The notes under the pieces are model-generated. The model was not told where the DNA came from and made no database searches. It saw only the letters and a list, made by a program, of their open reading frames with translations. From the NCBI RefSeq assembly GCF_900128995.1, contig NZ_FQUE01000008.1:1-64000 (forward strand): a stretch of 64,000 bases of DNA, read 5' to 3'. Positions 926-10,118 of the stretch are shown here, piece by piece (the first letter of the stretch is position 1; each line of letters starts with the position of its first letter). The position numbers and the translations under genes are program-made. This DNA is from Loktanella atrilutea (lineage in GTDB: Bacteria; Pseudomonadota; Alphaproteobacteria; Rhodobacterales; Rhodobacteraceae).

Positions 926-1588
926 ATGGCTGATTACCTACCTACCACGCCCCTGAGCGTGTTCAAAACCCCCATCCCCAAATTTGATGCTGGGGTCGGC
1001 GCTGCAATCCCGGCAAACCTTGTTGCCTCGATGACGGCGTTCGACACCTGCCTCGCGCTGGTCATCCGGTCGATCGCGGCGAATGCCGACGTTGCGGGCT
1101 GGGCCGGCGATCCGGCGTTGTCGTCCCTCTCAGTGGAGGCTGCCGATGCGGAGGCCTGTGCGGATATGGCGCTGGACGCCTTCTACTGGCAGCCGGAGTC
1201 CGATCCCGACCTGAGCAATGCCGCCAGGCTGTTGCTGCTCTTGTTCGCAGACGACGGCCGCGACCTCGAGATGTTGGCGGCGCGGTCCGAGACTCTGCTC
1301 TACAACGCGATCGTCTGCAGCACTTGGCCCCTGCCCGGCAACAGCTACAAATCCGGGCGGATGGTGGTGGCCGCCGATCTGCTGGACCACCTGATCGCGC
1401 TGGCGCGGGATGATATGGGCACCAGCGAGATGCATGTCGATGGCTTGCGCTCTATCGGAATCCGTCCTGTCCGGGTCGACATCGACCGGATCGATACCTT
1501 CAGCACTGGCATGCAGGGGTCTGACCCACAGCCCTGTCTGGCACCGGCCCCTGTGCGGGATGTCATGCCGGACTTCGGGCCGGCCTGA
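926..1588 (+). CDS. Unknown 220-aa protein, first gene of the zinc-finger/AAA-protease module
   Basis: The ATG at 926 has a strong AAGGAG ribosome binding site at 914-919, which favours it over an upstream TTG at 827. The protein begins MADYLPTTPLSVFKTPIPKF and is mostly alpha-helical by eye, with alanine- and leucine-rich stretches (for example SNAARLLLLLFADDGRDLEM near residues 90-110) and an acidic overall character. There is no signal peptide, transmembrane helix or catalytic motif I recognise. GC and codon use match the two downstream genes. It is the first of three plus-strand genes (926, 1724, 2973) on a mobile-looking segment. I do not recognise the family. Confidence 0.7.
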   Translation: MADYLPTTPLSVFKTPIPKFDAGVGAAIPANLVASMTAFDTCLALVIRSIAANADVAGWAGDPALSSLSVEAADAEACADMALDAFYWQPESDPDLSNAARLLLLLFADDGRDLEMLAARSETLLYNAIVCSTWPLPGNSYKSGRMVVAADLLDHLIALARDDMGTSEMHVDGLRSIGIRPVRVDIDRIDTFSTGMQGSDPQPCLAPAPVRDVMPDFGPA

Positions 1589-1623
1589 CCGCACATTTCC
1601 ACCGCCTGCACACGCGTCACGCA

Positions 1624-1649
1624 CGGCATCCGGTCACCCCCGGATGCCG
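1624..1649 (+). other. 10-bp perfect hairpin between module genes 1 and 2
   Basis: CGGCATCCGG (1624-1633) and CCGGATGCCG (1640-1649) pair perfectly around the loop TCACCC. There is no following T-run, so this is not a standard intrinsic terminator. It could be an mRNA processing or attenuating structure, since a similar GC-rich hairpin (2918-2938) lies in the next gap of the same module. Confidence 0.5.
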
Positions 1650-1723
1650 ACGGCACACCTGTGCCGGATCACATCATCCTCGTCCGGTCCTTCACCATGA
1701 CCCCCTCTTCAAGGAGCGTTCCC

Positions 1724-2791
1724 ATGAACGATCACATCCCCACGTCCGCCGCAGCGGTTGCCGTCCCCGCCCACGCCTTGTCTTCGGAAGCGGAGCCCAG
1801 CACCGGCAGCCGTCGGCGCAGCCATCTGGCCGGACCGGTGTCCCCGGGCTGGGTCTTTGCCGCCGATCGGCACGGCTTCGACGTCATCGGCCGCATGCGC
1901 GACAAGGACCGCCTCGTGCTCTGCTGCCGGGCCTGCGACAGCCCCTTCGCGGTGCGGGTCAGTGTCGTGCGCGACGCCCGCCCCCTGTGCCATGCCTGCA
2001 TCCGGTCACGGCGCGCGGCAGCCGCCGCTCAGCTCGGGGCCTACCTCGTCGGGCCGACGCCTGACGACATGCGCGTCGGGTTCCTGGCCCTGTCCTGCGG
2101 CCACGTCGTGCGGCGCCAGTACCAGAGCATCGAGCGTGCCGCAGAGGTCGGCTTCTCCATCGACTGCCCGACGTGCAGGGAAGCGCGTTACGCGGAAGAG
2201 GCACGCGCGTTCGGCTGGACGCTGGACGGACCTGCCATGACCGGCGCCGACGGCTACCGCAGCTACCGGCACGGCTGCGGCCATCTGCAGGACATCAGCA
2301 TCGGCAACATGCTCTGGGGGGACTGCAGCTGTGCGGGCTGTGCCGCGACGTGGTCCGCCAAGCCGTCGTTCATCTACATGTTCGCGGTGGACCTGCCCGG
2401 TCTGCCGGTCGTGAAGCTGGGCCATTCGGCGCGACCCGGCAAACGGCTGCGGCACCAGCTCGACATCCGCTTCGATGTGCAGACCAGAATCCTGCGCGTC
2501 CTGCCGCTGGTGTCAGGCCATCTGGCGCAACGCGAAGAGAAAGCCTGCCACCGCCTCATGCACCGGGATCATCCGGAGATGGTGGTGCCCAAGGCCGTGT
2601 TCGGGCCCGCGATCAACACGCAGGGCGAGATCTACCACGCCGCAGCCGCATCTGTGATCCACGCCCTGATGGACGCCGTCGCCCTGCGCCATCCGTACCG
2701 CAGGACCTCCACCACGCAAGCAGGGCCATCTGCAGCCCTGCCTGGCCAGAAGCCCGGCAAGACCGGACGAAAGCCGAAGCGTCCGACCTGA
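1724..2791 (+). CDS. Zinc-finger protein with a C-terminal T5orf172/GIY-YIG-like nuclease domain (355 aa)
   Basis: The ATG at 1724 has AAGGAG 7 bases upstream, which decides the start over a GTG at 1661. The N-terminal half carries CxxC-type zinc-binding pairs (CCRACDSPF, LCHACI, then CGH...CPTC and CGH...CSCAGC). The C-terminal part, from about residue 216, reads FIYMFAVD...VVKLGHSARPGKRLRHQL. That matches the Y-(I/V)-Y...VKxGxSxxPxxRLxxL signature of T5orf172/Mug113 proteins, a GIY-YIG nuclease-like fold. A later REEKACHRL helix could supply the catalytic Glu. Multiple treble-clef-like fingers ahead of the domain suggest DNA binding. It sits between an unknown gene and an AAA+ protease gene on the same strand. 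The nuclease role is a family-based inference. Confidence 0.7.
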   Translation: MNDHIPTSAAAVAVPAHALSSEAEPSTGSRRRSHLAGPVSPGWVFAADRHGFDVIGRMRDKDRLVLCCRACDSPFAVRVSVVRDARPLCHACIRSRRAAAAAQLGAYLVGPTPDDMRVGFLALSCGHVVRRQYQSIERAAEVGFSIDCPTCREARYAEEARAFGWTLDGPAMTGADGYRSYRHGCGHLQDISIGNMLWGDCSCAGCAATWSAKPSFIYMFAVDLPGLPVVKLGHSARPGKRLRHQLDIRFDVQTRILRVLPLVSGHLAQREEKACHRLMHRDHPEMVVPKAVFGPAINTQGEIYHAAAASVIHALMDAVALRHPYRRTSTTQAGPSAALPGQKPGKTGRKPKRPT

Positions 2792-2917
2792 TGTGTCCCG
2801 CGCCGTGCGGGGCGATGCGCACGCCCTGCACGGCAGAACCTTGAGACGTCTGAGACCCTCACGGCGCGGCAGGCCCTCTGCATGGCCCCGGACGCCTGGC
2901 TTTGCGGCCTCTTTCTA

Positions 2918-2938
2918 CCCGCGCGCCCAACGCGCGGG
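2918..2938 (+). other. 8-bp GC hairpin between module genes 2 and 3
   Basis: CCCGCGCG (2918-2925) and CGCGCGGG (2931-2938) form a perfect stem with a 5-base loop CCCAA, upstream of the protease start at 2973. There is no T-run. It parallels the hairpin at 1624-1649 in the previous gap. Confidence 0.45.
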
Positions 2939-2972
2939 CCATCCCCCCACTTTGTCCCGATCGGATGTCACC

Positions 2973-5477
2973 ATGACCCATCAGCCCCGTTCCACCACAC
3001 CGCCCGTCACCCGGATGCCGGACGCATGCCGCAGCAAGGCCTGTGATCGGATGCGCACTGCACTCGCTGCAAAGACCGCCACGATCCCGCCTGCGACGGG
3101 GACCACATCCACGGCGCTCCTCGCTGGCCTGCGCCATGGCCCGGCGCATCCCGTCGACACCGGCCCCCACTCCATTGGCATGTCGGATGGTCCCCCCGCA
3201 TGGGTCGCGGTGGCTGAGCGTGCCCTGAACCTGCGCGAGCCCGACCGGAAGGCGCTGCGCGATGCCCGCCTCGTGTCGCAGTTCCGTGCCTTTGCGCTGT
3301 CCACGCAGGCCGAGTTCAGCGCGGGCCTGATCGCCGATCATCCGGATATGGACGGGACCGGTGCCGGTGGCGCCACCGGGGCAGAGGCGGACGGCATGAC
3401 GATTGCCTTCGATGGGACATCGCCAGCCATTCCGCTGGCCACCACGCTGACCGCGCCGCAGATCACCGCGATGATCACGACACAGGACGACCCCTGGGCC
3501 ATCGACCGGGACACCGGGACGTGCAGGCCGCCCTACGATCTCGATCTGACCGAGCTGCTGCCGCTGGCCCGTCTCTGCGCCGCCTGTGGCGATCAGGCCG
3601 GGATCGACGCTTTGTTGTCGGACGGCTGCGCCACCGTCATCATCTGCGCCGACGACGCCGAGATGACCGCGCTGTCGGACATGCTCTACACCGGTCTGCG
3701 GGCCACGCCCTATGCGGTTGGCTCGCCACACGCCACGCCGCAGCGGCGTGTCCACGTCGTGAGTGTCCCCGCAGAGTCCGGATCGGTGCAGACCGGCATG
3801 CTGGACCGGGCGCGGGACAAGCTGAAGGTTGCGGGCCCCCTCGTCATCCTGGCGACCAGGACGACCGCCCTGCCCCCGGTCCTGAACCACCTGCCGGTCC
3901 TTCGGCTGGCCGCGTTGGAGACGGAAGTGATCCTGTTCGCCCTGCGCGAACTACAGTCTGCGACGGGGGTGATCAGCACGGGCGCCGTGCGCGCGGCGCT
4001 GCCCCCCGCCGACGCTTTGGCGACATTGCCCCGTGACGTCCTCACACTGGCCTTCCGCGCCCGCGGTCCACTCCGCACCGCCGCGTGTCTCGCGGACCTG
4101 CGCGCGCAGCAGACCGCTACCGGTACAGACGACGGGGCCAAGGCAGGCCCTGATACCGGTGCCGGCGGCAACACCGCCGCCGGCCCCCTGCTCGACGACC
4201 TGCCCGGGCTGGGCGCCGCACGTGACCCGTTGCGCCAGATCGTGGGCGATCTGCGGGCCTATGCCGGTGGCACGCTGCCTTGGGCAGATGTGACCGGCGG
4301 CCTGATCCTCGCGGGACCGCCGGGGACAGGCAAGACCACCCTCGCGGCCGCCATCGCCTGCTCCGCCGGTGTGCCGCTTGTTGCCACGACCTGCAGCGAC
4401 TGGCATCTGAAGGGTCGGTTCTCCGAGATGCTGGCCGCGATGGCGGCGGCATTCGAGGAAGCCCGCGCCCGCGCACCTGCGGTCCTCTTCATCGACGAGA
4501 TCGACACCCTCGGCTCGCGCGCCGGGCGGAGCGATCACAATGCCTCCTACGACCGGCATGTCATCAATGCCATCCTCGCGCAGATCGACGGGACGCGGGG
4601 CCGTGACGGCGTGCTGATCATCGGGGCCACGAACTATCCCGACATGCTGGACCCGGCGCTCGTGCGGCCGGGGCGACTGGGCAAGACGATCCGCATCCTG
4701 CCCCCGCAGGAGCGCGAGCTGGCTGCGGTGTTCCGCTATCACCTCGGGCCCGATCTGCCGCAGATCGATCTCGGCCCTGTCGCCCGCGCGGCGGCAGGCG
4801 CCTCGATGGCCGAGGTCATGGGCATGGTGCAGGCGGCCCGCGCCACCGCGCGCAAGGCGGATCGCGTTATGACCGCCGCCGATCTGACGACCGCCGTCCG
4901 CGAACGGCATCCCCCGGTGTCCGACGCCCTGCGCCTGCGGATCGCGATCCACGAGGCCGGTCACGTCGTGGCGGCCCACGTCACGGGCAGCGCACAGCCT
5001 CGTTCGGTGACGCTGACGGGGACGGAAGGTCGCACCGCCCTGCGCGCCCTGCCGCATGCAAGCGACGCGCGGGCCGTTACGGCCAGCCTGATCCGCAGCC
5101 TCGCCGGGCGCGCGGCAGAGGAAGAGATCCTCGGCACCACCTCCGGCGGCGCCGGTGGCGGGCCTGGCTCCGATCTCGCCCAGGCCACGCACGAGGCGAT
5201 CACCGAGGTCCTGTCCCTCGGGCGCGACGACCGGCTGATCTGGTATTCGGCCACTGACGACCCCGCCGTTCTCTTCGCCCGCCACAAGGGTCTGCGCGAC
5301 ACTGTCGGCCGCCGCCTGCAGGCGGCATACGCCCGCGCCCGCAGCCTCGTCGGCGCCAACCGCACCGCCGTCGAGGCCATCGCGGCACATCTGGTCGTGG
5401 ACGGTCACCTTGACCGCGAGACCCTGCGCGATCTGCTGGTGTTCTGTGAAAGGCACGAGCCCGACACATCTGGATAA
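2973..5477 (+). CDS. FtsH-like AAA+ zinc metalloprotease without visible membrane helices (834 aa)
   Basis: The first good ATG of the coding frame is at 2973; sequence upstream to 2793 is open but looks non-coding. Residues about 1-420 form a divergent N-terminal region with no transmembrane helices, unlike classical FtsH. The ATPase domain has Walker A GPPGTGKT (448-455), Walker B VLFIDEID (504-511) and an arginine-finger region RPGRLGKTIRI. The C-terminal M41-type domain carries the zinc site HEAGH (660-664) and a third-ligand segment GSDLAQAT (Asp734), matching FtsH. The likely role is ATP-driven unfolding and proteolysis of soluble targets. It is the last gene of a module with a zinc-finger/GIY-YIG-like protein and next to a mobilisation cassette, so a role in element maintenance, regulation or defence is possible but unproven. 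Confidence 0.85.
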   Translation: MTHQPRSTTPPVTRMPDACRSKACDRMRTALAAKTATIPPATGTTSTALLAGLRHGPAHPVDTGPHSIGMSDGPPAWVAVAERALNLREPDRKALRDARLVSQFRAFALSTQAEFSAGLIADHPDMDGTGAGGATGAEADGMTIAFDGTSPAIPLATTLTAPQITAMITTQDDPWAIDRDTGTCRPPYDLDLTELLPLARLCAACGDQAGIDALLSDGCATVIICADDAEMTALSDMLYTGLRATPYAVGSPHATPQRRVHVVSVPAESGSVQTGMLDRARDKLKVAGPLVILATRTTALPPVLNHLPVLRLAALETEVILFALRELQSATGVISTGAVRAALPPADALATLPRDVLTLAFRARGPLRTAACLADLRAQQTATGTDDGAKAGPDTGAGGNTAAGPLLDDLPGLGAARDPLRQIVGDLRAYAGGTLPWADVTGGLILAGPPGTGKTTLAAAIACSAGVPLVATTCSDWHLKGRFSEMLAAMAAAFEEARARAPAVLFIDEIDTLGSRAGRSDHNASYDRHVINAILAQIDGTRGRDGVLIIGATNYPDMLDPALVRPGRLGKTIRILPPQERELAAVFRYHLGPDLPQIDLGPVARAAAGASMAEVMGMVQAARATARKADRVMTAADLTTAVRERHPPVSDALRLRIAIHEAGHVVAAHVTGSAQPRSVTLTGTEGRTALRALPHASDARAVTASLIRSLAGRAAEEEILGTTSGGAGGGPGSDLAQATHEAITEVLSLGRDDRLIWYSATDDPAVLFARHKGLRDTVGRRLQAAYARARSLVGANRTAVEAIAAHLVVDGHLDRETLRDLLVFCERHEPDTSG

Positions 5478-6622: not shown

Positions 6623-6958
6623 ATGCCTGACAAAAAAACCGACAGCGACGATCAAACCGAAAAACGGCGGACCATCACGATCAACCGTGCAGCCTCGGTA
6701 ATAAATGAGCTGGAGCTTCTTGCGCGGAGAAACAACTGCAGCAGCATACCGGATTTCCTCTTGCTGTGCGTCGCGGCGTTCGAGTCCGCAGTCGATCAGG
6801 AGACGTCGGCCGCGATCGGGCAGATGAACCGACAGATGAACGTGCTGACCCGGAAAGTCTTAGCGGACGAGATATCGCCCGAAAAGCTGACGTCGGCCCT
6901 TCACAGGTTTTCGACCGAACTGCGAAGACTGCCTGTCCGGTTGCGGGTGCAGCGCTGA
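6623..6958 (+). CDS. Mobilisation accessory protein, MobC-like (111 aa)
   Basis: The ATG at 6623 is preceded by GGAG at 6612-6615; an in-frame ATG at 6608 is the alternative. The protein begins with a charged tail (MPDKKTDSDDQTEKRR), then TITINRAASVINELELLARR, a strand-helix-helix start like that of relaxosome accessory (RHH/MobC) proteins. A helical C-terminal part (QMNRQMNVLTRKVLADEI) follows. The stop overlaps the relaxase start by one base (TGATG at 6956-6960), so the two are translationally coupled. Such proteins bind near oriT and help the relaxase open the strand. The family assignment rests on pattern and context. Confidence 0.6.
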   Translation: MPDKKTDSDDQTEKRRTITINRAASVINELELLARRNNCSSIPDFLLLCVAAFESAVDQETSAAIGQMNRQMNVLTRKVLADEISPEKLTSALHRFSTELRRLPVRLRVQR

Positions 6959-8433
6959 TGTATGCACACTTCGCTCCGAAAGACGGTCTGGAAAAGGCAA
7001 TCGCAGAATACCCGTTTGAGGATCTGCCATTGATCCTGGATGGTACAATCGCCCTCGGATCCGCAGACGAGGTCTACAAGACGCTGAAAATGCTGATGCG
7101 CCCGGGTGACAAATGCTACCTCGTAACGATCCACCTGCCTGTTGGCCGCGACATGACCGACGTGGCTGCCGTCAGGCTGATGCGGGCCGCGGTCAGGGAC
7201 AGGGGCGTCGATCCGGATACCATCCCCTACATTATCGCAAGACACGCGAATACGGGCAAAGCGCATTTTCATATGGTAATTCTCGGACGGACCTTTGCCG
7301 GACGACGGGTCATTGTCGACCTGACTGTTGCCACAACCCAAGCCTCTCATCGCCGTCAGGCGCTGGCTTACGGTTTGCCGTTGCCCGCATATTTTGATCT
7401 TGCAGCAGTCCCGACGTTTCGGCCACCGATCATCCTGCGGCGTGTGGACCATAAGCCAACCACAAAAGAGCGTCGTTCGTCACCCGGCGCTACACAGGAA
7501 ACCACTGTTGAAAAGGCAAGGCGGCACCGCCTCAACACCGATCTGATCCGAGTGTTCACCGAGGATCAGCCAACCGATCTGCAGGCGCTGAACATCGCGC
7601 TTGACCGGATCGGGGCAGGCTACGGGATTACCATGATCCCGGGAAAACGCGCCAAGGCGACCTTCGCCACCACAGACCAAGACCCGATCTTTCTCAACAC
7701 GCTTGGCCCGGCCTGGTATGTCAGCGCCCTTCAGGCCCGCATGGCTTTTGCTACACAGCTTCTCAATGTGCGCCCCGTTCTAGCGCTGCGCTTTCTGCTG
7801 CGCGCCCATCGTCTGAACCCAACACAGGATTTCCATCATGACCGACACAACGCCAACCATGCTGACAGAATTGACGCCCGAGGAACTGACACAAGCCCAA
7901 CTGGACCGCATGGAGGCGGCGATCACCCGCCTCCAACCGTTGCTCAACCTTCTGGAGAGGCCAGTCACCGGGGAGGAGGAGAACCTGATCAAACTCCTGT
8001 TCCAAGGCCTGGATACGGTGATCGCGGGTCAGGACGCGTTGCGGGTGCAGGTGTCGGATCTCGATCAGCTGATCCGGGACGTGATGGGGGAAGACGACTG
8101 ACGGCGCCAAACGGCTGGATCGCGAGGCTGTGTCGCACTGCACGGCAGTTCGGTGGGCGCCTGGTCAAAGTCGGGCGCAACAAAGCGCGCAATCGACTCG
8201 CCATGATCCGTTTCGCCGACGGCGGCCACAGTGTGCACCGCAAGTCGGGGCACCGGGTGTCAGTTCCAAGCCCAAATGTCATGGCATTCGCAGTAACATG
8301 GAAGACGGCCGCCACCATACCACCATCCGTTATCCCGGATGCAGCCTGGCTGGCAGAACCGCAGGTGGTCGCGGAACCTGAACTAACAGGCGCGTCATCA
8401 GATAACGAAGATCACGACACTCCAGGAATGTGA
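6958..8433 (+). CDS. Divergent relaxase / mobilisation nuclease (491 aa)
   Basis: Translation starts at ATG 6958 inside the stop of the accessory gene. The key motif is HANTGKAHFHMVILGRTF (about residues 99-116). Its H-x6-H-x-H spacing is the metal-binding three-histidine motif III of MOBP/MOBQ relaxases, which nick oriT and covalently carry the strand during conjugation. An N-terminal Tyr (Y2, also Y18 or Y41) would be the nucleophile, but the surrounding motif is not classical. The middle (about residues 290-390) becomes rich in H, R, G and P exactly where another gene (7838-8101) is encoded in a different frame. The last 100 residues look like ordinary protein again. No type IV secretion genes are in the window, so the element would be mobilised by another one. 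Confidence 0.65.
   Translation: MYAHFAPKDGLEKAIAEYPFEDLPLILDGTIALGSADEVYKTLKMLMRPGDKCYLVTIHLPVGRDMTDVAAVRLMRAAVRDRGVDPDTIPYIIARHANTGKAHFHMVILGRTFAGRRVIVDLTVATTQASHRRQALAYGLPLPAYFDLAAVPTFRPPIILRRVDHKPTTKERRSSPGATQETTVEKARRHRLNTDLIRVFTEDQPTDLQALNIALDRIGAGYGITMIPGKRAKATFATTDQDPIFLNTLGPAWYVSALQARMAFATQLLNVRPVLALRFLLRAHRLNPTQDFHHDRHNANHADRIDARGTDTSPTGPHGGGDHPPPTVAQPSGEASHRGGGEPDQTPVPRPGYGDRGSGRVAGAGVGSRSADPGRDGGRRLTAPNGWIARLCRTARQFGGRLVKVGRNKARNRLAMIRFADGGHSVHRKSGHRVSVPSPNVMAFAVTWKTAATIPPSVIPDAAWLAEPQVVAEPELTGASSDNEDHDTPGM
7838..8101 (+). CDS. 87-aa protein nested inside the relaxase gene in another frame
   Basis: The ATG at 7838 has AGGA upstream and opens an 87-residue frame lying wholly inside the relaxase reading frame but shifted. 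Its sequence (MTDTTPTMLTELTPEELTQA..., ending LDQLIRDVMGEDD) has normal acidic, helical composition and strong third-position GC, whereas the relaxase frame across the same bases is a low-quality R/G/P/H string. It is predicted to be mostly coiled or helical and acidic, with no known motif. The arrangement recalls mobB inside mobA on IncQ plasmids such as RSF1010, but I see no sequence relationship. A role as a relaxosome helper is inference. Confidence 0.65.
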   Translation: MTDTTPTMLTELTPEELTQAQLDRMEAAITRLQPLLNLLERPVTGEEENLIKLLFQGLDTVIAGQDALRVQVSDLDQLIRDVMGEDD

Positions 8434-8789
8434 CGGTCAACACACTGCGGGATGGGCTGCCATTGAACCCAGGTTGCAGGTCAGTGAGTCAAAAGGACTT
8501 CTCCCGCGCGGCGTGTCCCATCTCGCCACCTTTTCCGTCGTTGCCTGTTTATCTTCGACATTATCGTCCCCTTCAGCGCGGTAATCTGCCAACATCGCAC
8601 ACCAGATAGGACTTGGAACGCAGTCGCGCACAGCACGGCCGAAGGATTCACGGTTTGCATACCCTGCTATGGGAGTTGGCAAGCATCGCAGGTGATTGGG
8701 ACGCTGATTTACGAAGGGGGTGGATCAAACATCATCCACTTTCGACCCAGCGAACAGGTTTCAATCGCATGCCGCCATGCGAGCCGTGG
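8434..8789. other. Intergenic stretch between relaxase and TRAP genes
   Basis: No convincing gene is visible. A minus-strand open frame (8437-8682) lacks a ribosome binding site and resembles no family known to me. This stretch probably contains the right boundary of the accessory segment, but no flanking direct repeat could be identified by eye. Confidence 0.35.
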
Positions 8790-10118
8790 CTAAAGAAGTG
8801 CGGTCGCCGTAGCGGGTAAAAGGGCGACAATCAGCAGCACGACCAACATGACACCGATGAATGGCAGTGTGGCGGCGAAGATCTGTTCGACCGTGACATC
8901 AGGATCGTTCAGCGTGTTGTGAACTGTGAAGACCGAGATGCCGAAGGGAGGTGTCAGCAAGCCGATCTCGACTGCCAGCACGGTGATGATGCCAAAGTGG
9001 CTAAGGTCGATGCCGAGGCCCTGTGCGATCGGGGCCGCGATCGGGACCATGATCAGCAGGATCGACGTACTATCGAGGATCATACCCATCGCCAGGATGA
9101 TGACGGAATAAAAGAACAGGAAGCCCAGCGGGGAAAATCCGCCTGATCGCACCAAATCGGCGATTGCATTGGGCAGCCCCGCAATCGACAGCATGCGGGA
9201 ATAATAGCTGGCAGCAATCAGCAGAACGAGGATGGCGACCGAGATCGCGCCGGTCTGCTTCATCACTTGCCACATCTTGCCACCGCCAAGGCTGCGCCGC
9301 CAAAGCGCGATGACCAGCGCACCGAAGGCGCCGATGCCGCCCGCCTCGGTCGGCGTGAAGAAGCCGGAATAAAGACCGCCCAGCACAAGTATCACCAGCA
9401 GGATGATCGGGATCAGTTTTGCGAACATGGTGCCGGCTGACATTTCCGGCCCGGTGCGGTCCAGCCGTTTGGCGCGGGCCGCCGCGGGATCTGTATAGAC
9501 GAAGGCAGGAAAGGCGACTGACACCCCCATCAGCATCACGACGAAGCCGATCGCCAACAGGAGGCCGGGGATCAGGCCCGCGATGAACATGCCGCCGATG
9601 CTGACCTCGGCCAGAACGCCGTAGATGATCAGCAGCAGGCTGGGCGGGATCAGCATCCCCAGCACGGAACTGCCTGCGACGGTCCCTGCGGCAAAGGCGG
9701 GGCGATAGCCGTGGCGCGTCATCTCGGGCACAGCGACGCGGGTGAAGACGGCGGCAGAGGCGATGGAGACGCCAGTGACGGCGGCGAAGATCGTGTTCGC
9801 GGCAACGGTCGCGACGCCCAGACCGCAGAGCACGCGGCGCAGCAGCTCCTCGGCCACCTCGAACGTATCGCGGCCAACATTGGAAACACTGACCAGCAGG
9901 CCCATCAGAACGAACAGCGGGATCGTGGCGAAGAGGTAGTCCGCGATGCCGCTGTAGGCCGTCAACTCCAGCATTTTGAAGGCCAGCCCGCTGTTGTCGC
10001 GGATGATCCAGATACCGAGGAAGCCCACCGCGAACAGCGCGTAGGCAATCTGCAGCCCCAGCAGGACGAGTCCGACCAGCATGGCGATCAGCAGGAAACC
10101 GATGATCAGGGTCGTCAT
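8790..10118 (-). CDS. TRAP transporter large membrane subunit, DctM family (442 aa)
   Basis: This is the 12-helix channel subunit of a TRAP transporter, which imports organic acids using the sodium gradient with a periplasmic binding protein. The protein starts MTTLIIGFLLIAMLVGLVLL at ATG 10118, overlapping the small-subunit stop by four bases (ATGA). It shows the usual chain of long hydrophobic helices and the conserved segment GVSIASAAVFTRVAVPEM with the following GTVAGSSVLGMLIPPS, typical of DctM. Length is normal for the family. It is the last gene of a minus-strand operon beginning with a molybdenum hydroxylase at 15537, so the cargo is likely that enzyme's substrate. Confidence 0.93.
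   Translation of the reverse strand: MTTLIIGFLLIAMLVGLVLLGLQIAYALFAVGFLGIWIIRDNSGLAFKMLELTAYSGIADYLFATIPLFVLMGLLVSVSNVGRDTFEVAEELLRRVLCGLGVATVAANTIFAAVTGVSIASAAVFTRVAVPEMTRHGYRPAFAAGTVAGSSVLGMLIPPSLLLIIYGVLAEVSIGGMFIAGLIPGLLLAIGFVVMLMGVSVAFPAFVYTDPAAARAKRLDRTGPEMSAGTMFAKLIPIILLVILVLGGLYSGFFTPTEAGGIGAFGALVIALWRRSLGGGKMWQVMKQTGAISVAILVLLIAASYYSRMLSIAGLPNAIADLVRSGGFSPLGFLFFYSVIILAMGMILDSTSILLIMVPIAAPIAQGLGIDLSHFGIITVLAVEIGLLTPPFGISVFTVHNTLNDPDVTVEQIFAATLPFIGVMLVVLLIVALLPATATALL

Follow-up and report, generated by a model that had tools for sequence, protein, structure and literature searches.

A four-gene cassette of Rhodobacterales mobile DNA that places a candidate GIY-YIG nuclease beside a soluble FtsH-like AAA metalloprotease

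The first 64,000 bases of contig NZ_FQUE01000008.1 from Loktanella atrilutea (the window; the contig has 169,818 bases within a 4.2 Mb genome) carry a conserved cassette of four genes in the order ribbon-helix-helix (RHH) regulator, gene 1, nuclease and AAA protein, with the RHH gene divergent from the other three. Gene 1 encodes a fast-evolving protein, gene 2 a candidate zinc-finger GIY-YIG nuclease of the T5orf172 type, and gene 3 a soluble FtsH-like AAA metalloprotease. The cassette is real, and its linkage lies beyond chance. Its parts are known ones, newly combined and repeatedly exchanged, and it is undescribed in the literature that we found: among the matches listed by literature searches, no title or abstract opening described this gene set. 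Judged from sequence, the best reading is a modular cassette, so far undescribed, whose nuclease acts against invaders and is gated by an AAA motor, and we put the probability that these four genes, with their RHH regulator and on mobile DNA, attack foreign or competing DNA at roughly 0.42.

Gene order and linkage

An initial annotation of this DNA had described a module of three co-directional genes starting at 926, 1,724 and 2,973. All three are real open frames in the same direction, conserved among relatives, and the trio stands; overlooked was the divergent fourth gene, an open frame of 58 codons that runs from 814 to 638 on the minus strand. It encodes a CopG-like RHH regulator of 58 amino acids, whose score is 84 bits against a profile built from the RHH genes of related loci. 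Because sequences from the window were among the seeds of such profiles, the window's own profile scores are not independent evidence. Support for the RHH gene that is independent of the seeds comes from a like gene at the equivalent position in other loci and from plasmid records, where a "ribbon-helix-helix protein, CopG family" is annotated adjoining the cassette in most, not all, of the records examined. The intergenic region between the RHH gene and gene 1 (815 to 925) is likely a shared operator and promoter and contains a small palindrome, CTTGTTTACAAG; no common operator motif was found among the 89 divergent regions compared, in which the palindromes vary from locus to locus.

Scanning 84,980 species genomes with a pattern returned 82 relatives of gene 2, from which 80 loci were kept, and linkage was counted among those with enough flanking sequence. 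Gene 1 lies upstream of the nuclease and adjoins it in 69/75 loci, the RHH gene is at its expected place in 50/71, and a protease relative follows downstream in 56/68 by the script's rule, or in 59/68 when the overlapping-frame loci L134, L137 and L142 are included (one counted protease, in L149, is split in two fragments). A stricter adjacency count gave 65/75 for gene 1, 49/69 for RHH and 56/68 for the protease; in the overall collection several loci are present twice, and part of these duplicates served as profile seeds. In 20 control stretches of 14 kb each from the same genomes, searched with seven profiles, there was one match at E <= 1, to the protease profile, and none to the RHH, gene 1, nuclease or serine-recombinase profiles. 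Conservation of gene neighbours had been suggested as a check on the module, and the genes are indeed adjacent in most relatives rather than scattered. Of the regulated protease/nuclease cassette first proposed, what is well supported is that protease and nuclease form a cassette on mobile DNA together with the gene of a regulator: the RHH gene is adjacent, the order is conserved and relatives are found on plasmids or beside recombinases and relaxases.

Among 394 genomes of the family, 27 contain gene 2, 3 of them by a weak match; in a class-wide draw of 385 genomes gene 2 was present only in the window's own. It is also present in 17 plasmid records, with a protease relative adjoining it in 5 of the 8 examined. 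Nearly all of the 80 loci presumably come from genera of Rhodobacterales, and the named rows of a 99-row protease tree belong mostly to Paracoccaceae or Roseobacteraceae, with one from Devosiaceae. A protease search of the 394 genomes gave matches in 389, mostly of the housekeeping-FtsH kind as judged from scores; relatives of gene 3 are undercounted in it because only two candidates were scored per genome. A scan of viral contigs by a single short pattern yielded one with a gene 2 relative (L205, IMG/VR, 55,562 bases), and single-protein patterns yielded no protease relatives in viral contigs. L205 carries gene 1, the GIY-YIG gene, the protease and a serine recombinase, and may be an integrated element and not a phage.

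The candidate nuclease and the AAA-M41 protein

Gene 2 (1,724 to 2,791, forward strand; 355 amino acids) is a predicted nuclease, a candidacy that draws on profiles, residues and an AF2 model. The Cys-pair fingers reported earlier resolve into three zinc-type units (residues 68 to 206; 1,925 to 2,341), with ligand sets C68/C71/C89/C92, C125/H127/C148/C151 and H183/C185/C203/C206, which appear as three alike units in the model and are likely DNA-binding. Over 55 aligned rows these Cys and His residues are invariant, except for C68, which is conserved in at least 90%. Across the same rows Y218, K231, G233, R241 and E272 of the GIY-YIG region (residues 213 to 322; 2,360 to 2,689) are invariant and H276 is kept in at least 90%; we take Y218, R241 and E272 to be the GIY-YIG Tyr, Arg and catalytic Glu. 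The Pfam families T5orf172 and MUG113 match 12 and 7, respectively, of 33 aligned gene 2 rows (best E 0.00016), so that the T5orf172/GIY-YIG-like domain noted earlier is matched in relatives; the window protein itself has no T5orf172 or MUG113 match at E 0.1. In the AF2 model (pLDDT 86.3) a b-b-a-b-a stretch occupies residues 215 to 282, with more helices up to 322. The named best matches to viral models include phage CapR/zinc/T5orf172 and homing-endonuclease proteins, and among PHROGs the protein matches the endonuclease PHROG 681 (E 2.9e-8). Profiles and viral models support the GIY-YIG domain; a Foldseek search of the whole model against solved structures in the PDB found no match at E <= 0.001.

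Gene 3 (2,973 to 5,477, forward strand; 834 amino acids) had been credited with Walker A and B motifs and HEAGH in the absence of membrane helices, and both Pfam (AAA, 8.6e-32; Peptidase_M41, 8e-11) and hydropathy agree: in Kyte-Doolittle windows of 19 residues the maximum is 1.65, inside the AAA domain, and none reaches 1.8. Walker A and B are intact in the AAA domain (residues 442 to 640; 4,296 to 4,892), as is HEAGH at residues 660 to 664 in the M41 peptidase domain (residues 651 to 826; 4,923 to 5,450). Also invariant are R565 and R568, presumably arginine fingers, and D734, which we take to be the third zinc ligand. Walker motifs are present in 47/47 aligned proteases and HExxH in 43/47. 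The close relatives that lack HExxH (L128 to L130 and L132) keep their Walker motifs.

With the FtsH/M41 proteases gene 3 shares the AAA and M41 domains, active-site residues included. It differs from FtsH in having no membrane-type stretch and instead an N-domain of about 200 residues, in its link to a nuclease, and, at the level of the family, in the loss of the zinc site in 4/47 rows. Gene 3 is alignable with FtsH chains only over about residues 395 to 829, and it scores 177.4 bits with the NCBIfam FtsH model against an equivalog cut-off of 600. The N-domain (residues 190 to 385; 3,540 to 4,127) is alpha/beta and then helical in the model. The tandem AAA protein Rix7 aligns to gene 3 over residues 194 to 646, and the N-domain is possibly a degenerate AAA module; a profile comparison of the N-domain with the AAA domain was negative. 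Free-standing relatives of the N-domain occur in L090 and L097, where they match the gene 3 profile with 22 and 63 bits.

Exchange in the nuclease and motor positions

The frame of a protease/nuclease trio proved too narrow, in that there are four genes and the nuclease and the motor are both interchangeable. Nine protease relatives without gene 2 (L101, L103, L104, L109, L112 to L114, L116 and L124) have gene 1 and a different protein of about 185 residues in the nuclease slot, and 6 of these 9 loci also match the RHH profile. The slot protein is PD-(D/E)XK-like. A D ... QxK motif is invariant in 9/9, and in the five scanned against Pfam the PDDEXK_5 scores, at a cut-off of 26.1, were 26.4 bits in L113, 25.4 in L112, 18.9 in L103 and 16.3 in L109, with no match in L101. 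This type appears in four separate places in the quick 99-row protease tree, which has long branches (one of them met by the PD-(D/E)XK-like row L109) and in which L147, with a GIY-YIG protein, is mislabelled. A careful tree of 50 rows, picked after the first tree, with long branches including L109 left out and under a simpler model, places the type in three positions and rejects a single clade (approximately unbiased test, p 2e-67). On these trees the nuclease slot has been exchanged, in one direction or the other, with a PD-(D/E)XK-like protein standing in it in three or more distinct lineages of the protease. A third slot protein occurs in L108, with a remnant in L102; it matches only DUF7830, below the cut-off (E 2.3e-4), and may be a CoiA-like nuclease.

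Exchange also extends to the motor. In L090 (the same locus as L181) and L097 the nuclease is followed by the free-standing N-domain relative and an AAA protein that has no M41 match, and L082 (6,300 to 10,200) carries RHH, gene 1 and nuclease, then an 85-amino-acid gene, then a 390-amino-acid AAA gene without a peptidase, an arrangement that may be a separate subtype. The peptidase-less AAA type appears Lon-like, judged from its motifs and not from a profile. In five loci (L040, L041, L042, L084 and L160) the AAA gene is absent while nuclease, gene 1 and RHH are kept. The AAA slot keeps the motor more strictly than the peptidase, and the loss of HExxH together with the peptidase-less variants suggests that unfolding matters more than proteolysis.

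These exchanges bear on two alternatives. If gene 3 were a soluble FtsH variant in a stress protein-quality-control locus, its neighbours would be accidental; the linkage to nuclease, gene 1 and RHH, the exchange in the slot and the loss of HExxH in relatives make this very improbable. A selfish homing cassette, in which the nuclease would act as a homing endonuclease accompanied by its regulators or by passengers, has more in its favor: the phage and homing-endonuclease proteins among the viral model matches of gene 2, its PHROG 681 match, and the known occurrence of the PD-(D/E)XK fold among homing endonucleases. However, a homing gene would not be expected to keep constant company with RHH, gene 1 and a large AAA protein, the slot protein changes while that company stays, and a single viral contig was found, though by one short pattern. 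We consider homing quite improbable.

Gene 1 spans 926 to 1,588 on the forward strand (220 amino acids). Searches of Pfam, PHROGs and PADLOC gave nothing for the window protein, and NCBIfam gave one match at chance level (E 0.1); across a 48-row alignment the sole Pfam match is DUF2218, in 2 rows (best E 0.0011), and the closest solved chains, at weak E, are designed helical proteins and FtsZ. In a set of 110 loci, duplicates included, where a protease relative scores above 400 bits, gene 1 adjoins the protease in 93/98 with a recognised slot protein versus 0/12 without one, as counted with a gene 1 profile made from GIY-YIG loci only; 2 of the 5 misses (L176 and L184) start at a contig end. 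Gene 1 is tied to the slot protein, and our guess is that it is the nuclease's partner, most likely an inhibitor.

On the anti-invader reading, the RHH protein would repress the divergent promoter, and gene 1 would act as the partner that most likely keeps the nuclease inactive. Once an invader is sensed, the AAA protein would strip gene 1 off and free the nuclease, versions with an active peptidase would degrade gene 1 as well, and the zinc units would select the DNA to be cut. Loci in which the AAA gene is absent while the nuclease stays fit an activator better than an antitoxin and argue against the AAA protein in the latter role. A more far-reaching form of this proposal, which we regard as possible but doubtful, is a mobile-element immunity family in which a soluble, possibly tandem-AAA machine of the FtsH type gates a nuclease. 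Nuclease (GIY-YIG, PD-(D/E)XK or the third kind) and motor (FtsH-type or Lon-like) would then be plug-in parts, linked through gene 1 as adaptor or inhibitor.

Much of the same evidence could describe an addiction module, with the nuclease as toxin, gene 1 and/or RHH as antitoxin and the AAA protease as turnover factor; losing the element would then kill or harm the cell. An RHH regulator, a small partner gene tied to the slot protein, a protease and a mobile setting would all be at home in such a module. Yet the tandem zinc units speak for target selection over general toxicity, and four genes including one for a large AAA protein would be unusual among toxin-antitoxin pairs. We hold addiction to be unlikely, though it is the alternative to which we give most weight.

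Mobile setting, neighbours and known systems

Relatives of the cassette are found in varied settings: near plasmid repA/repB, near a relaxase gene, and in islands with a recombinase and tRNA-Met. The earlier placement on mobile DNA is borne out by these relatives, with their plasmids, recombinases and relaxases, while in the window the match of the relaxase-like gene is below the cut-off. That gene (6,958 to 8,433, forward strand) lies outside the cassette, 1.5 kb downstream of gene 3, and matches Pfam Relaxase at E 1.6e-4 (22.4 bits against a curated cut-off of 24.6); a small protein gene (6,623 to 6,958, forward strand), likewise outside the cassette, overlaps it at TGATG. No convincing att-type direct repeats were found around the window's element. 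A serine recombinase (above 200 bits) occurs in 18/80 loci. In 21/29 loci picked for holding such a recombinase, a few of them duplicates, a tRNA-Met (CAT) gene overlaps the recombinase's 3' end, and tRNA-Met (CAT) is a recurrent integration site carrying the cassette. The overlap joins the last ~41 bases of the recombinase with the end of the tRNA gene on the opposite strand (L036, L078, L079, L087, L089, L091, L101, L104, L139, L145, L148, L150, L151, L173, L183 to L185, L187, L188, L201 and L204), and the full-length recombinases examined end in ...GFEPTTFRL or near it.

These settings could also be read as those of a module for the element's own DNA processing, in control of replication, excision or transfer. 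Consistent with this are the relaxase-like gene pair that follows gene 3 in the window at a distance of 1.1 kb, a serine recombinase no more than 9 kb downstream in 13/48 loci having at least 4.5 kb of downstream DNA, and NikA-like (4) and Mob_Pre (3) matches among 150 neighbouring proteins. Against it, 35/48 loci have no serine recombinase in the stretch searched and the settings are unlike one another, which suggests that the cassette is not bound to one transfer or replication system. We rank this explanation as unlikely too, after addiction and ahead of homing.

The neighbour set took up to 3 proteins on each side of 35 loci, 156 proteins of which 150 were scanned, including the AAA gene of L082. 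Pfam also found the Recombinase domain in 9 of the 150 (controls had no Pfam scan). The 150 neighbours matched 134 PADLOC families versus 14 for 150 of 167 control proteins, totals that are not gene counts because the families overlap heavily. When 10 hand-picked large neighbours were checked singly, matches were confirmed for DruE3 of Druantia III in L085, for MzaC plus MzaE in L095 and for a type I restriction protein in L081; the other six had no defence match. A defence neighbourhood is suggested.

Several points weigh against an anti-invader role. The enrichment in the neighbourhood lacks statistical support, its neighbour families come from the first 25 listed, and the controls had PADLOC matches of their own (mads_3 in 9 members, mads_8 in 7, a type III restriction-modification system, SspA/DndA models). 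The RHH profile has no match in 21/71 loci and the protease is absent in 9/68. The activity of gene 2 is deduced from residues, and the part assigned to gene 1 is conjecture. Genes 1 and 2 match no PADLOC model, whose hits to gene 3 come through its AAA domain only. According to the available parts of PMC10448857, zinc units joined to a T5orf172 domain are a design typical of homing endonucleases.

Comparison with known systems gives likenesses of parts. Phage T5orf172 homing endonucleases share with gene 2 the zinc units and the T5orf172-type GIY-YIG domain (PMC10448857, in the parts available). A design precedent is Odn, the T5orf172 nuclease of phage ICP1 against the satellite PLE (PMC8263062); it has the T5orf172 domain in common with gene 2, and the available parts of that paper do not name zinc units in Odn. 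In contrast to both, the cassette sits on bacterial plasmids and islands with fixed partner genes. With ATPase-nuclease defence pairs such as PARIS, the cassette shares an ATPase and a nuclease effector; it differs in the ATPase family, the presence of a peptidase and the zinc-unit nuclease. IetAS is a defence system of an AAA protein and a subtilisin-type protease. It shares ATPase and protease functions with gene 3, which matches IetA models via the AAA domain (E 7.4e-20); these matches are at AAA level only, and IetS had no match in the five window proteins scanned. In the cassette, unlike IetAS, a metallopeptidase is fused to the AAA domain, and nuclease, gene 1 and RHH are added. The available parts of PMC10924106 and PMC12322248 mention an extracellular-domain profile in ietA and refer to FtsH in phage adsorption.

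If the anti-invader reading is right, a family of membrane quality-control proteases would be linked to the control of a DNA nuclease on mobile elements, the idea of AAA unfoldases as on-switches of DNA-cutting effectors would become testable, and Rhodobacterales, an important marine group, would gain a clade-specific system. The loci would then offer a natural swap experiment, with related regulator, partner and motor set beside two or three unrelated slot proteins.

A second, broken copy lies in the same genome (L073, G000:C29:15000-32000, at about 6,700 to 9,400), with the RHH frame intact and gene 1 damaged. By eye, the 3' end of its GIY-YIG gene runs into a coding sequence like a type I restriction-modification methylase, followed by sequence like a specificity subunit; this copy bears on neither side of the addiction reading. 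Twelve protease loci have neither gene 1 nor a recognised slot protein, and six of them are plasmids outside Rhodobacterales. Three of these six have a metallophosphoesterase gene near a more distant AAA-M41 gene (L120, Rhizobium; L121, Bosea; L122, Methylorubrum), with DUF6634 also near the protease relative in L121 and L122 and a 3'-5' exonuclease gene in L122, which perhaps form a sister arrangement with other phosphoesterases.

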